A stretch of 64,000 nucleotides of DNA, from assembly GCA_024639455.1 (NCBI GenBank), contig JAHEIH010000007.1, positions 107,119 through 171,118 on the forward strand. Reading direction: 5' to 3'. This document shows positions 12,465 through 19,115 of this stretch, piece by piece. The notes beneath the pieces are model-generated. The model had not been told where the DNA came from and made no database searches. It saw only the letters and a program-made list of their open reading frames with translations. A program made the position numbers and the translations under genes. Positions within the stretch are counted from its first letter, which is position 1. Every line of letters begins with the position of its first letter. Source of the stretch: Cellvibrionales bacterium (GTDB taxonomy: Bacteria; Pseudomonadota; Gammaproteobacteria; Pseudomonadales; JAHEIH01).

Positions 12465-12476
12465 ATTGGATCCAAA
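12465..12476. promoter_or_regulatory. VanR-type operator at vanR (ATTGGATCCAAA)
   Basis: This matches the published Caulobacter VanR operator in eleven of twelve positions and lies ten bases upstream of the vanR start, so it suits autorepression. Confidence 0.75.
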
Positions 12477-12528
12477 CGTGATTTAAATATTGCCTCATTA
12501 CTTGTAAATATACTAGTAATTGCTTATT

Positions 12529-12540
12529 ATTGGATCCATA
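12529..12540. promoter_or_regulatory. VanR-type operator (ATTGGATCCATA)
   Basis: This is the second TGGATCCA palindrome in the vanR/demethylase 2 divergent region. It lies in an AT-rich stretch suitable for a promoter. Confidence 0.7.
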
Positions 12541-12582
12541 ATTTATGCTTTTTGGCATAATATTCGTAAAAATCATCCATTT

Positions 12583-12592
12583 ATGGATCCAT
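12583..12592. promoter_or_regulatory. VanR-type operator ATGGATCCAT before demethylase 2
   Basis: A perfect ten-base palindrome ends 26 bases before the demethylase 2 start, where bound repressor would block transcription. Confidence 0.7.
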
Positions 12593-12618
12593 TAGTTAAT
12601 AAAATCATGAGGTGAGCC

Positions 12619-14019
12619 ATGAGTAGTTTAGAGAGTGTTTTGCAAACGGGTGTGAACCCTGTCCAAATGTTGCGCAATTCAAAGATCGGTGCCTACGTAT
12701 ACCCCGTCGTCCCTTACGAGTTCAGTAACTGGCGTGATGAGCAGCGCGCATGGCGCGAGACCTGCGTACTGTTCGATCAGTCTCACCACATGGTAGACAT
12801 GATTGTTGAAGGTCCAGATGTGTTCGAATTCATGAGCCGTCTGACCATTAACAGCTTCAAAGGCTTTACTGTGGGTAAAGCGAAGCAGATGGTACCTGTT
12901 AGCCACGACGGCTACGTCATTGGCGACGGTATTCTGTTCTACGAAGCTGAAGAACGTATGATCTTTGTGGGTCGTCAGCCCTCAGCTAACTGGATCCAAT
13001 TCCACGCTGAAACAAGCGGTATGAATGTGAAAGCGACCTACGACGATCGCTCACCTTCTAAAACGTTTGGTAAAGAAGTCAGCCGTGTTCACTACCGCTT
13101 CCAGATCCAGGGCCCCAATGCCTCTAAGGTGATTGAAAAGTTAAACGGTGGTCCAGTCCCTGAAATCAAATTCTTTAATTTTGACAAAATTAAACTGAAC
13201 GGCCGCGAAGTGTTCGCACTGCGTCACGGTATGTCGGGTGCGCCCGGTCTGGAAATTTGGGGGCCCTACGAGGAGTACCTGCAAGTTCGCCAGGAAATCG
13301 TTGAGGCGGGTAAAGAGTTTGGTTTAGTGGAAGTGGGTGCACGTACTTATGCGTCCAACACGTTGGAGTCTGGTTGGATTCCTTCACCCCTGCCAGCCGT
13401 CTATACCGGTGAAGCCATGAAACCCTACCGCGAGTGGTTGGATGCCAATGGTTACGAAGGTTTTGCTGGCGCTATCGGTGGTAGTTTCGTATCTGACAAC
13501 ATTGAAGACTACTACATGACACCTTACGACTTGGGTTACGGTCCCTTCGTGCGTTTCGACCACGACTTCATTGGTCGCGAAGCATTGGAAGCTATGGATG
13601 CTGCTAAACAGCGTAAGAAAGTGACCTTTGCTTGGAATGGCGAAGACGTGATGAAAGCATTGGCCACCTACTTTGTAAAAGAAGGTCTCGTGGCTAAATT
13701 CATCGACATGCCCATCTCGAACTATACCTCTGCTGGTCACGACAAAGTGTGCGATGCAGACGGCAATGTACTGGGCCTGTCAATGTTCACTGGTTATAGC
13801 TTTAACGAGCGCACCATGCTGTCACTAGGTGTTGTAGATGCCAGCGTAGAGATCGGCGATGAATTGACGCTGTGGTGGGGCGAGCCCGATGGTGGTACTG
13901 ACAAAATTACCGTTGAGGAGCATGAGATGTTCCCCATCCGCGTTATTGTTAGCCCCACCCCTTACTCAGAAGTGGCGCGCAACACCTACGCAGAAGGCTG
14001 GCGCAGCCAGGACGCCTAA
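12619..14019 (+). CDS. ligM: Tetrahydrofolate-dependent vanillate-type O-demethylase (LigM family), copy 2
   Basis: This 466-residue GcvT-fold demethylase is paralogous to copy 1 along its whole length. The residues that I recall as important in SYK-6 LigM are present: the tyrosine pair in AYVYP (Tyr26 and Tyr28), His57 in SHHMVD, Arg119 in FVGRQPS and Tyr244 in RTYASN. Methyl transfer from vanillate to tetrahydrofolate would yield protocatechuate, the LigAB substrate. It is controlled by three VanR-type sites upstream, in contrast to copy 1. A terminator follows the gene, so it is probably monocistronic. Confidence 0.93.
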
Positions 14020-14044
14020 TCAACATATGGCGTGAAAGACGATG

Positions 14045-16645: not shown

Positions 16646-16725
16646 GGATGGTTTCCTGTCATTATTAGTTTGTTCCTATCATGCTGATTTGATCTTGTTA
16701 ATCAACTTGAAATGTGGAATATATG

Positions 16726-16754
16726 AAAAAAGGGGGGCATTGCCCCCCCCCTTT
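16726..16754 (-). terminator. Terminator of the TonB receptor gene
   Basis: On the minus strand a G-run/C-run stem (GGGGGG with CCCCCC, loop CAATG) is followed by six T residues. It sits just past the receptor stop codon and before the aldehyde dehydrogenase promoter region. Confidence 0.8.
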
Positions 16755-16761
16755 GAAAATA

Positions 16762-18984
16762 CTAGAAGGTATAGCCGAGTGTCACGCCGTATTGACGGGG
16801 CGGTAGGTAGGTACCAGTAATCGTGCGGCTAGTAGAAATTGCAAAGGCGCCCGATAGCACCATTTCGTCGGTGAGGTTTTTCACCCAGAAATTTGCGGTA
16901 AAACGTTCATCTGGCGCAGTGTACAACACGTTGGCGTCGACAATGGTGTAGGCGTCAGCGGCCATCACTGGATTGTTGAACTCGGTGTAGTACTGCTTGC
17001 CTTTAGCGGCCACATTACCGCCCCAGCGCAAACTACCGCCGTTGGCGAGGTTGTGATCGTAGCTAACCTTTACGTTGTAGGTCCAGTCTGGGGTGTTGCG
17101 TGGCGAGTTGCCGGCCAAGCTGACGGGCTGCACCGAGGTGCTGGCAGCACCAAACAAATCTTCGTTGAGCGGGTCGAGCGATAAGAACTCATCGAATGAA
17201 ATGTCGTACCAAGTGGCGTTGAAATCGACCGTCCAGTGTTGATCGGGTGCCCAGCGTGTTTCCAACTCAATGCCCTTGCCATCGGTTACGGCCGCGTTCT
17301 CCAAGCGAGCAGAGAAGAAGGGTGGGACTGGGATGGGGAAGGTGCGATCAAACTGTGCATCAGACACTTCATAGGCAAACAGCGCAATGTTGGTTTGCAG
17401 CGTGTTGTCAGCAGACGTTGTCTTGTAGCCAAACTCATAGTTCTTGATGGTTTCGGGGTCTACCACCGAGGGGGTGCGTTCACCGAGGTTGGCGGTACCA
17501 CTTTTAAAGCCCTCCGAATAGGTGGCGTACAACAGCGAGTCATCTTCTGTGCGGTACTCGACGCCGAGCTCGGGCGATACGTCGCTAAATTTTTTGGAGG
17601 TATTTTTGATCGGATCAAACACAGCGGCGTTCACCGTCGGTGCGGGTGAATCCACCCCGAACAAACTCTCGACTGAGCGTTCTTCGTTAGAGTAGCGCAG
17701 GCCAAATTTACCCGACAGCTGATCCGTGAAACGGTAGTTGAAGTTGGTGAACGCTGCGTAGGCTTTGACATCCATGTTAGCGCCCACATATACGCGCACG
17801 CGGTCTGGTGCATTAACGGGGTCCTTGCCAATGAGGACTAGGCTGTCAATATCGTCGGTGAAATAGTACATTCCCACGATGCCCGACAAACGGTCACCCT
17901 CGTAAACAAACTGCAATTCTTCAGAAAATTGAATATTGTCGATCGATTGGCGCTGGGTGGTCGATGTGGTGCCAGGTTCGTCGGGCCAGCCACTGTTGTC
18001 GGTGTCAGAGACGTCAAAGTCCTGTACCAGTACGTTTGAGAACTTGCGGCGATTGGTGATCGACTTAAACGCCCATTCGTCGCTCAGGTCCCAGCTCAAG
18101 GTGTTGGTGAACGAGGTGGTATCAAGGGTGGCCACCGGTACGAAGTCGCCGCCTGCATTGCGTGAATTGGGGTATACGTCCGGCAAGCCAATAGCAAATA
18201 AACCCGGATTGCCGGTGGTCGGGAATGAAGCGCGAATAAACTTAACCGCACGTGAATTTTCATCTTCGTCGAAGTTTTCAATGGTGAATAAGTTATTAAT
18301 GTTATCCGCGATATCCCACTCTAGGTGGGCGCGAATACCCAACTTATTGGCGTCATCGATATCTTGCCCGGTACCGGTGTGAATGCCAAAGCCGTCGCGT
18401 TTTTGTTTCCAGAAAGCCAAGCGACCACGCACTGTATCAGAGAGTGGGCCGCTCACTGCGCCTTCCGCGATGATATTGAGGTCGCTACCACCCAGCGTAA
18501 ATTTACCGTAGCCTTCGAACTCGTCTGTTGGCTTTGCCGTGATCAAGTTGATAGAGCCGCCCGTCGCGTTACGCCCATATAATGTGCCCTGTGGGCCGCG
18601 AAGAAATTCAACCCGTTCAAGGTCGAACAGCGAGGCGAACTGCGCCGCCGCTTGAGAAATGACAGCTCCGTCGACGTGCAGAGCCACCGATGGATCAATG
18701 CCTGCGAAAGAGCTGCTCATACCAACGCCGCGCACGAAGATTTTGGCGAAGTTGAAATCGTTACCGAACGTTAAGCCCGGTACTAATACCTGCAGGTCTT
18801 CAATGTTGTTGATCTGCGATGTTTTAAGGTCATCGGCGTTAATCGATGTGACCGCGGCGCTGACATCCTGCAAATCTTGTGAACGTTTTTGGGCTGTTAC
18901 TACAACCTCTTCAAGTTGTGCGTGTGCGACGCCAGTAGTTAGCAGCGACGCTGCAATAGCAGTCGATAAAAGTGTCTTTTTCAT
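16762..18984 (-). CDS. TonB-dependent outer membrane receptor, probably for aromatic acids
   Basis: This 740-residue outer membrane transporter starts at 18984, where GGTGA lies five bases upstream; the longer frame from 18996 spoils the signal peptide. Residues 1-22 are a signal peptide ending GVAHA. The TonB box-like segment EEVVVTAQKR follows, then the plug domain (residues about 40-150, with DLQVLVPGL and LRGPQGTLYGRNATGGSINL) and a beta barrel that ends in a terminal Phe (GVTLGYTF). Two VanR-type operators lie upstream. Receptors of this class import lignin-derived aromatics in sphingomonads (DdvT), so vanillate-like uptake is inferred. No siderophore genes are nearby. Confidence 0.9.
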   Translation of the reverse strand: MKKTLLSTAIAASLLTTGVAHAQLEEVVVTAQKRSQDLQDVSAAVTSINADDLKTSQINNIEDLQVLVPGLTFGNDFNFAKIFVRGVGMSSSFAGIDPSVALHVDGAVISQAAAQFASLFDLERVEFLRGPQGTLYGRNATGGSINLITAKPTDEFEGYGKFTLGGSDLNIIAEGAVSGPLSDTVRGRLAFWKQKRDGFGIHTGTGQDIDDANKLGIRAHLEWDIADNINNLFTIENFDEDENSRAVKFIRASFPTTGNPGLFAIGLPDVYPNSRNAGGDFVPVATLDTTSFTNTLSWDLSDEWAFKSITNRRKFSNVLVQDFDVSDTDNSGWPDEPGTTSTTQRQSIDNIQFSEELQFVYEGDRLSGIVGMYYFTDDIDSLVLIGKDPVNAPDRVRVYVGANMDVKAYAAFTNFNYRFTDQLSGKFGLRYSNEERSVESLFGVDSPAPTVNAAVFDPIKNTSKKFSDVSPELGVEYRTEDDSLLYATYSEGFKSGTANLGERTPSVVDPETIKNYEFGYKTTSADNTLQTNIALFAYEVSDAQFDRTFPIPVPPFFSARLENAAVTDGKGIELETRWAPDQHWTVDFNATWYDISFDEFLSLDPLNEDLFGAASTSVQPVSLAGNSPRNTPDWTYNVKVSYDHNLANGGSLRWGGNVAAKGKQYYTEFNNPVMAADAYTIVDANVLYTAPDERFTANFWVKNLTDEMVLSGAFAISTSRTITGTYLPPRQYGVTLGYTF

Positions 18985-19049
18985 TGTTGTCACCATATTT
19001 GTGTAGTTTTATTGCCATAATAGCAGATTTTGTACAGTTGCATGTATAA

Positions 19050-19061
19050 ATTGGATCCATT
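19050..19061. promoter_or_regulatory. VanR-type operator (ATTGGATCCATT)
   Basis: A TGGATCCA palindrome 66 bases before the TonB receptor start, matching the sites at vanR and demethylase 2. Confidence 0.7.
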
Positions 19062-19099
19062 TATGGTTAATATTGGGCGCATAATGACCTTGGTATTTT

Positions 19100-19115
19100 A
19101 TTTTGGATCCAAAAT
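19100..19115. promoter_or_regulatory. VanR-type operator, perfect 16-base palindrome
   Basis: ATTTTGGATCCAAAAT is the longest perfect palindrome of the family in the window. It lies between the divergent TonB receptor and fdsG genes, about 180 bases before fdsG, and could serve either or both. Confidence 0.72.

Follow-up and report, generated by a model that had tools for sequence, protein, structure and literature searches.

The window analysed here is a stretch of 64,000 nucleotides from the genome of a Cellvibrionales bacterium (assembly GCA_024639455.1, contig JAHEIH010000007.1, positions 107,119 to 171,118). It carries a gene for a GntR-type regulator, named here gntR1, next to a folate-dependent O-demethylase gene, ligM, and, farther along, a TonB-dependent receptor gene next to formate dehydrogenase genes. 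In both intergenic regions, copies of the 8-mer palindrome TGGATCCA were found, which are treated below as putative operators of GntR1. The features concerned are the following:

11757-12455, minus strand: gntR1, VanR-type FCD repressor of 232 amino acids (Pfam GntR and FCD)
12467-12474: operator 1, TGGATCCA, 12 bp from the gntR1 start codon
12502-12530, plus strand: candidate ligM promoter TTGTAA-17-TATTAT (prediction), ending directly at operator 2
12531-12538: operator 2, TGGATCCA, 64 bp from operator 1
12584-12591: operator 3, TGGATCCA, 53 bp from operator 2
12619-14019, plus strand: ligM (demethylase 2), vanillate/3-O-methylgallate O-demethylase family (NF047885, 733.5 bits, cut-off 580)
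16762-18996, minus strand: TonB-dependent receptor of 744 amino acids (PF00593 and PF07715)
19052-19059: operator 4, TGGATCCA (motif scan)
19104-19111: operator 5, TGGATCCA, 52 bp from operator 4
19298-19819, plus strand: fdsG, formate dehydrogenase gamma subunit (NF004638, 216.8 bits, cut-off 198), with an ATG also at 19295

A total of seven TGGATCCA copies were counted in the window (at 11201, 12467, 12531, 12584, 12991, 19052 and 19104) against 1.03 expected, and at least seven copies were reached in 0 of 100 shuffles. A preliminary description of this DNA had reported five intergenic copies, two further ones inside genes and about one chance copy per 64 kb, all of which agrees with these counts, the intragenic copies being those at 11201 (MFS gene) and 12991 (ligM). 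It had also distributed the five copies over three regulatory regions; they are indeed intergenic, but the regions are two, because the GntR gene and demethylase 2 have one common divergent region of 163 bp. When the search was extended to the host genome (2.88 Mb in 29 contigs, completeness 99.5), as that description had proposed, 28 copies were found compared to 19 of the reversed-pattern control. All 21 copies beyond the window fell inside mechanical open reading frames (ORFs) of at least 100 amino acids, so the five in the window are the only intergenic copies of the genome, and the motif withstood the search. Moreover, TTGGATCCAA had two copies in the genome, both in this window. The described likeness to the VanR operator of Caulobacter, which we take to be the 12-mer ATTGGATCCAAT, holds for the 8-mer core and not for the whole: no exact copy of the 12-mer was present in the window, the five operators matched it with 1-3 mismatches, and with up to three mismatches it was not enriched in the window (32 vs. 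29.3 expected), so that it was dropped as a search unit. Full-text literature searches returned, for ATTGGATCCAAT, only papers unrelated by title and, for TGGATCCA together with VanR, no paper on vanillate control as judged by title. The TGGATCCA motif is real and specific, and its signal resides in the 8-mer core.

The regulator itself scored above the cut-offs of PF00392 (GntR winged helix-turn-helix) and PF07729 (FCD), and its best solved match was Atu1419 (6z74, E 7.4e-34). An AlphaFold model built with 25 rows (predicted local distance difference test score of 84.4) showed an effector domain of six helices, as in the VanR group, and lacked the additional helix of FadR, the C-terminal helices spanning residues 71-95, 99-116, 123-143, 147-156, 171-197 and 200-211, plus a 4-residue helix at 213-216. 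The best fold match of this model was again Atu1419 (6za7, Z 20.8, root-mean-square deviation of 4.6 over 222 residues). Furthermore, the metal-site-type residues N133, H137, H188 and H210, of a kind found in some members of the VanR group, were invariant in 25 VanR rows, together with R81.

A genome scan for relatives of GntR1 gave 546 confirmed candidates, of which the best 80 named ones, chosen by protein alone, were kept; these were 48-58% identical to GntR1 and came from Halomonas, Pseudomonas, Thalassospira, Curvibacter and others. In their fetched loci (up to 12.7 kb), TGGATCCA was present anywhere in the stretch in 77 of 80, and VanA at 45% identity or more in 76 of 80, which bears out the earlier assignment of the GntR protein to the VanR type. 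Pfam matches to the VanA_C and Rieske domains confirmed the two reference VanA proteins, which were 68-86% identical to the VanA of two other loci, while the four VanA_C proteins of the host genome were at most 35% identical to them. The gntR1 gene is not beside vanAB, its neighbour being ligM. By sequence comparison, the host genome is without a close vanA, and folate-dependent ligM appears to take its place; this demethylation proceeds in the host by folate, not oxygen, chemistry. In a phylogenetic tree, GntR1 was sister to 71 gamma/beta rows (support 94/67) on a long branch. Apart from this genome, the combination of this type of regulator with a DesA/LigM protein was found among the 115 loci L075-L189 (up to 14 kb) only in one, L106 of genome G066. 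Homologues of GntR1 (E 1e-25) occurred in 10 of 114 other relatives and, at E 1e-40, in nine plasmid records. At E 1e-25, none was found in the one same-genus genome (75% complete), and therefore GntR1 has no close comparator.

The recognition helix was compared in 93 regulators having TGGATCCA at most 420 bp upstream, 81 of which fitted the helix pattern, with 30 further rows having neither motif within that distance. The helix R[LI]AFR was found in 80 of the 81 readable regulators of this class (the exception, L040, lies beside desA), while R[AE] was present in all nine regulators associated with a second motif, TGTATACA, which differs from TGGATCCA by one base per half-site; Atu1419 and a paralogue in this genome, GntR2, are among the nine. 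The helix of GntR1 (VRLAFRTL) belongs to the TGGATCCA class and that of GntR2 to the TGTATACA class. Altogether, GntR1 is predicted to be a VanR-type repressor, and both this identity and its operator are well supported by sequence comparison.

Regarding the arrangement of the operators, 60 of these 80 loci had an adjacent TGGATCCA pair 30-200 bp apart, and 20 had none. The closest spacing was 52 bp in 40 loci, 53 bp in six and 63 bp in seven, the remaining values being 74, 85, 86, 95, 97, 105 and 106 bp. With every distinct value counted a single time, these spacings were concentrated in phase at 10.5 bp (R 0.871, 0 of 20,000 random draws), pairs closer than 30 bp (14, 15, 20 or 22 bp, in ten loci) being excluded from the test. 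All site pairs were likewise phased when distinct genus/spacing combinations were counted (R 0.647, 0 of 5,000). In the window, the pairs are 52 bp apart in the receptor/fdsG region, and 53 and 64 bp apart in the gntR1/ligM region. A scan not conditioned on the regulator covered 390 genomes of the order and asked for two TGGATCCA copies separated by 30-60 bases; the forward pattern matched in 36 genomes and the reversed pattern in one (G286). The spacing was 52-53 bp in 25 of the 48 forward rows, two of them the window's own, compared to 3.1 expected under equal use of 31 spacings (counts read off by eye). Besides the host, 35 genomes had a pair, and wider context was fetched for 30 of them; a later scan matched 27 genomes, with stretches fetched from 16. 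Thus, VanR operators in related bacteria tend to pair at whole helical turns, which suggests that one tetramer bridges two operators. Shorter distances were also seen, namely two TGGATCCA copies 21 bp (two turns) apart at the GntR regulator beside desA in genome G066 (L106:4749-4777), and pairs at 20 bp in five Thalassospira loci. In many Halomonadaceae loci (L110, L113, L118 and others of Halomonas/Billgrantia), a further copy lies inside vanR, near 6304, some 370 bp away from the paired operators.

In aligned vanA promoters, a -35/-10 pair was often fixed before one operator, the other operator shifting by turns (by eye), and 21 of 62 non-redundant vanA promoters reached at least 9 of 12 in a hexamer score at a fixed place, compared to 5% of shuffles. 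This score replaced a weight matrix of VanR promoters, which held too little information because several operators precede each vanA. The candidate ligM promoter, ending at the operator at 12531, fits the vanA layout. It was the one promoter-like site of its region, where 1.4 were expected in shuffles, and an equally good site arose in 132 of 4,000 shuffles. Since the region with the operators is common to both genes, GntR1 probably controls ligM, a folate-dependent lignin demethylase, as well as its own gene, a prediction made from the sequence.

Control at the receptor/fdsG gap is supported by its second TGGATCCA pair, which has the commonest spacing of the family, 52 bp, and GntR1 perhaps controls the uptake receptor and formate oxidation as well. 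Scored with the crude weight matrix, the fdsG direction gave 5.2 (11 of 5,000 shuffles) and the receptor direction 3.1 (50 of 5,000). The hexamer scores were 7 and 6, respectively, neither above chance, and a consensus promoter scan of the gap gave no promoter in either direction. The preliminary description had brought aromatic uptake, demethylation and possibly formate oxidation into one regulon; this stands for ligM and finds support in the operator pair at the receptor/fdsG gap, but the formate direction is not separated from chance. Homologues of the receptor at E 1e-100 were found in two of 114 other genomes. An ORF of 41 codons (19114-19239, by eye) begins two bases past operator 5 and occupies most of the space before fdsG; it is possibly a leader ORF or a chance one.

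The second motif, TGTATACA, marks a different set of genes. GntR2, one of three FCD regulators in the genome, is encoded on the same contig outside the window and is 38% identical to GntR1. Three copies of the longer form WTTGTATACAAW were found in the genome, one before desA (6874), one between metF and purU (9295) and one before GntR2, and the degenerate pattern WTGTATMCAW gave 18 forward and 16 reverse rows compared to 5 and 10 for the control. The related features in the window are:

690-697: TGGATACA, one half-site of each motif, 53 bp from the site at 743
743-750: TGTATACA, upstream of a pyrroloquinoline quinone (PQQ) alcohol dehydrogenase gene (801-2882, plus strand) (motif scan)
5374-6792, minus strand: desA (demethylase 1), syringate O-demethylase (NF047633, 858.2 bits, cut-off 800)
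6876-6883: TGTATACA, desA/amidohydrolase region (motif scan)
7023-7030: TGTGTACA, second-motif site with one mismatch (motif scan)
7099-7106: TGTATCCA, one half-site of each motif (motif scan)
8164-9030, minus strand: metF-like methylenetetrahydrofolate reductase (PF02219, 58.8 bits, cut-off 24; below NCBIfam equivalog cut-offs)
9154-9161: TGTATACA, metF/purU region (motif scan)
9297-9304: TGTATACA (ATTGTATACAAT), metF/purU region (motif scan)
9419-10276, plus strand: purU, formyltetrahydrofolate deformylase (TIGR00655, 318.4 bits, cut-off 285.95)

In the fetched stretches, which exclude C13:19414 and C22:55838, intergenic TGTATACA or half-and-half sites (TGTATCCA/TGGATACA) were found at desA/amidohydrolase, metF/purU and GntR2/aldehyde dehydrogenase. 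Two half-and-half sites lie 52 bp apart in a receptor/acetoacetate-CoA ligase gap, the sites at the PQQ dehydrogenase promoter are 53 bp apart, and further ones occur in a SnoaL/GST gap (123 bp), an MFS/CmcJ-like gap and at C13:953. Furthermore, the B12-dependent methionine synthase gene metH, on a different contig from the aromatic cluster, has TGTATACA and TGTATCCA 74 bp apart directly upstream (C15:218551-218632, equal to L222:6552-6633). The GntR2 region has TGTATACA, and the GntR1 region has TGGATCCA and no TGTATACA operator. At 20 loci of other regulators, the TGTATACA-type pairs had spacings of 41, 63, 63, 64, 65, 73, 74 and 84 bp, and these eight, one of them involving a half-and-half site, were phased (R 0.87, 11 of 20,000); the spacings of this genome were not phased as a set (R 0.50, 2,715 of 20,000). 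In the tree, GntR2 joined the DesA-linked regulator of genome G066 (98/57), both on long branches.

The marking of desA, metF/purU, metH and the GntR2 promoter by TGTATACA places demethylase 1 and the folate genes outside the TGGATCCA regulon, and the putative targets of GntR2 (desA, metF, purU and metH) suggest a one-carbon (C1) or syringate theme. Consequently, the single vanillate-type signal put forward earlier has to be revised, as desA, metF/purU and metH are covered by the sites of the second FCD regulator. Other ideas about this motif were given up or weakened. Operator class was rejected as a predictor of the effector, as TGTATACA also lies beside true vanA (72-75% identity; L236, L238 and L239) and, in L241, at a GntR gene beside LigM (59%). 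The value of half-and-half sites as proof of cross-talk was weakened by L240, where such a site lies 63 bp from TGTATACA by a GntR2-like gene. The third FCD regulator, on contig C13, was set aside as a reader of the motifs (helix SRPTIREAI, beside a TonB receptor). A larger cluster of aldehyde dehydrogenases, MFS transporters, an amidohydrolase and TonB receptors surrounds GntR2 on contig C25 (L024:3627-14605, L219-L221).

The remaining features of the neighbourhood are:

10431-11744, minus strand: MFS transporter, downstream of gntR1 and possibly co-transcribed with it (PF07690)
11201-11208: TGGATCCA inside the MFS gene (motif scan)
12991-12998: TGGATCCA inside ligM, in frame with Trp-Ile-Gln codons
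14083-15285, plus strand: cobalamin-independent methionine-synthase-like protein, downstream of ligM (PF01717)
19819-21366, plus strand: fdsB-like subunit, NuoF family (below that model's cut-off)
21341-24232, plus strand: fdsA, formate dehydrogenase alpha subunit (TIGR01591, 904.8 bits, cut-off 666.25)
24234-25019, plus strand: FdhD/NarQ family accessory protein (PF02634)

The nearest model of the MFS transporter was that of aromatic acid/H+ symport (TIGR00895, 352.3 bits, below the cut-off of 418.55). An Rfam search of positions 5000-20000 gave no match.

Taken together, the following mechanism is proposed. In the effector-free state, GntR1 would sit on the three operators of the gntR1/ligM region and the two of the receptor/fdsG region and block transcription. 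The operators would act as pairs facing the same side of the DNA (spacings of 52-64 bp here), with a single tetramer most likely bound to both members of a pair, and one of the operators lies directly after a -10 box. An aromatic effector, favoured because of the orthology of GntR1 to vanA-linked VanR, would release the repressor. This would most likely be vanillate or 3-O-methylgallate (3MGA), as LigM acts on both by family name and either may be the signal; the orthology makes vanillate a likely effector. The outcome would be co-induction of the demethylase, the repressor and MFS transporter, and the receptor and/or formate dehydrogenase, which would oxidise the formate left after demethylation, while desA and the C1-folate genes would be under the paralogous repressor GntR2 with its operator TGTATACA. 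We consider this proposal as a whole likely. An extension is put forward only tentatively, in which VanR-family repressors would in general be tetramers that clamp two operators around a promoter, and two such clamps in this genome would exert a two-signal control of methoxyl-carbon flux: TGGATCCA would serve an aromatic arm (ligM, receptor and formate dehydrogenase), TGTATACA a C1-folate arm (desA, metF, purU, metH and GntR2), and the TGTATCCA sites would join the two.

Several observations weigh against the proposal or parts of it and leave room for other explanations. That the TGGATCCA cluster arose by chance is hardly credible: the 12-mer is unenriched when mismatches are allowed and the 8-mer is common inside genes, but all intergenic copies of the genome lie in two regions 6.5 kb apart with the spacing typical of the family. 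A more substantial alternative, though we rather doubt it, is that the paired spacing reflects an inherited promoter layout, in which blocking of the promoter falls to the downstream operator and the upstream one belongs to the divergent regulator gene. The phasing loci are indeed related by common ancestry, and sites 52 bp apart would roughly enclose a -35/-10 pair. Moreover, the closest-pair rule (adjacent, 30-200 bp, per locus) was chosen after the all-pairs result had been seen, in which distinct values were only weakly phased (R 0.228, p about 0.07), even less so without 52/53 bp (R 0.205, p 0.22), and the three spacings of the window alone were not significant (1,076 of 20,000). In the published passages available, Atu1419 shifts more strongly with two palindromes although one is enough (PMC7797058), and VanR2 of Pseudomonas sp. 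NGC7 binds its three GGGATCCC repeats independently, only the one after the -10 box mattering for repression, as mutating either of the other two left repression intact, so that a single operator is enough (PMC12314914). Bridging is thus not needed for binding, and this behaviour counts against an obligatory loop. Against the inherited layout, the spacings step by about one helical turn (63, 74, 85, 95 and 105 bp), the TGTATACA class at other regulators is likewise phased, and the second promoter pair of this genome is again 52 bp apart.

Somewhat short of an even chance is given to the explanation that the pair at 19052 and 19104 controls the TonB receptor only, fdsG having a nearer promoter of its own outside the regulon. 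From the nearer operator it is 56 bp to the receptor start compared to about 190 bp to fdsG, and no match to fds was found near a VanR-type regulator or operator pair in the 115 loci mentioned above, nor in 17 additional ones (L236-L252, up to 14 kb); accordingly, within the loci covered, control of formate dehydrogenase would be a trait of this lineage alone. The fetched loci of the two receptor homologues were also without the motif. The slightly higher matrix score of the fdsG direction speaks the other way, though neither the hexamer score nor the consensus scan separates the two. As for the signal, GntR1 might respond to a C1-folate such as N5,N10-methylene-tetrahydrofolate (methylene-THF) instead of an aromatic compound, thereby sensing methyl load, which would naturally include formate dehydrogenase; we regard this as unlikely. 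The presence of vanA in 76 of the 80 relatives' loci disfavours it, as VanA belongs to the Rieske enzymes and yields formaldehyde but no methyl-THF. The invariant residues R81, N133, H137, H188 and H210 align with Arg86, Asn137, His141, a further His and His214 of Atu1419, yet Tyr133 of that protein is replaced by Trp129, and the conserved pocket residues do not separate folate from aromatic readings. In the passages at hand, Atu1419, the closest solved structure, represses a folate O-demethylase and a methylene-THF reductase, with release by methylene-THF being proposed (PMC7797058), VanR2 answers to syringate and 3MGA, not vanillate (PMC12314914), and vanillate is given as the effector in the Caulobacter system (PMC6888825). 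These more distant relatives (VanR2 and Atu1419) qualify the reading of one vanillate signal.

Overall, a real VanR regulon is present, with binding predicted from the sequence. The core observation of the preliminary description is correct, its single-signal interpretation is over-broad, and the operator-phasing pattern extends beyond this locus. One repressor may link outer-membrane uptake, O-demethylation and disposal of methyl carbon. Should bridging be true, the phasing of VanR operators would offer a simple rule for designing the vanillate switch in its use as a tool. In titles and abstract starts among the matches listed, and in passages, a literature set without the primary VanR papers on Caulobacter and Acinetobacter, no statement of VanR phasing or of formate dehydrogenase under VanR was found.

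Compared with known systems, GntR1 resembles the GntR/FCD-type VanR of the vanAB operons (Caulobacter, Acinetobacter and Pseudomonas) in family, recognition helix, TGGATCCA core and paired operators, usually in a region common with its own gene. It differs in that folate-dependent ligM stands in place of Rieske vanAB and in the second operator pair at the TonB receptor/formate dehydrogenase genes. According to the passages available, Atu1419 of Agrobacterium fabrum (6z74) is alike in its VanR-group FCD fold, its folate O-demethylase target and the two operators in its own divergent region; it is a tetramer, each dimer of which holds one palindrome, and its operator ATGTATACAT is of the motif type found here at GntR2, unlike that of GntR1 (PMC7797058). 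VanR2, 30-33% identical to VanRs, is also a GntR repressor with three inverted repeats, of GGATCC core, one directly after the -10 box, but its operator (GGGATCCC) and its Rieske vanA1B1 target differ, in the parts of that paper at hand (PMC12314914). DesR of Sphingobium SYK-6 likewise represses ligM and is released by vanillate/syringate, but it belongs to the MarR family and has other 15-bp inverted repeats (PMC6888825, in part). In the available passages of the same paper the regulator of desA was left unidentified (PMC6888825), and the FCD type represented here by GntR2 offers a candidate class for it.

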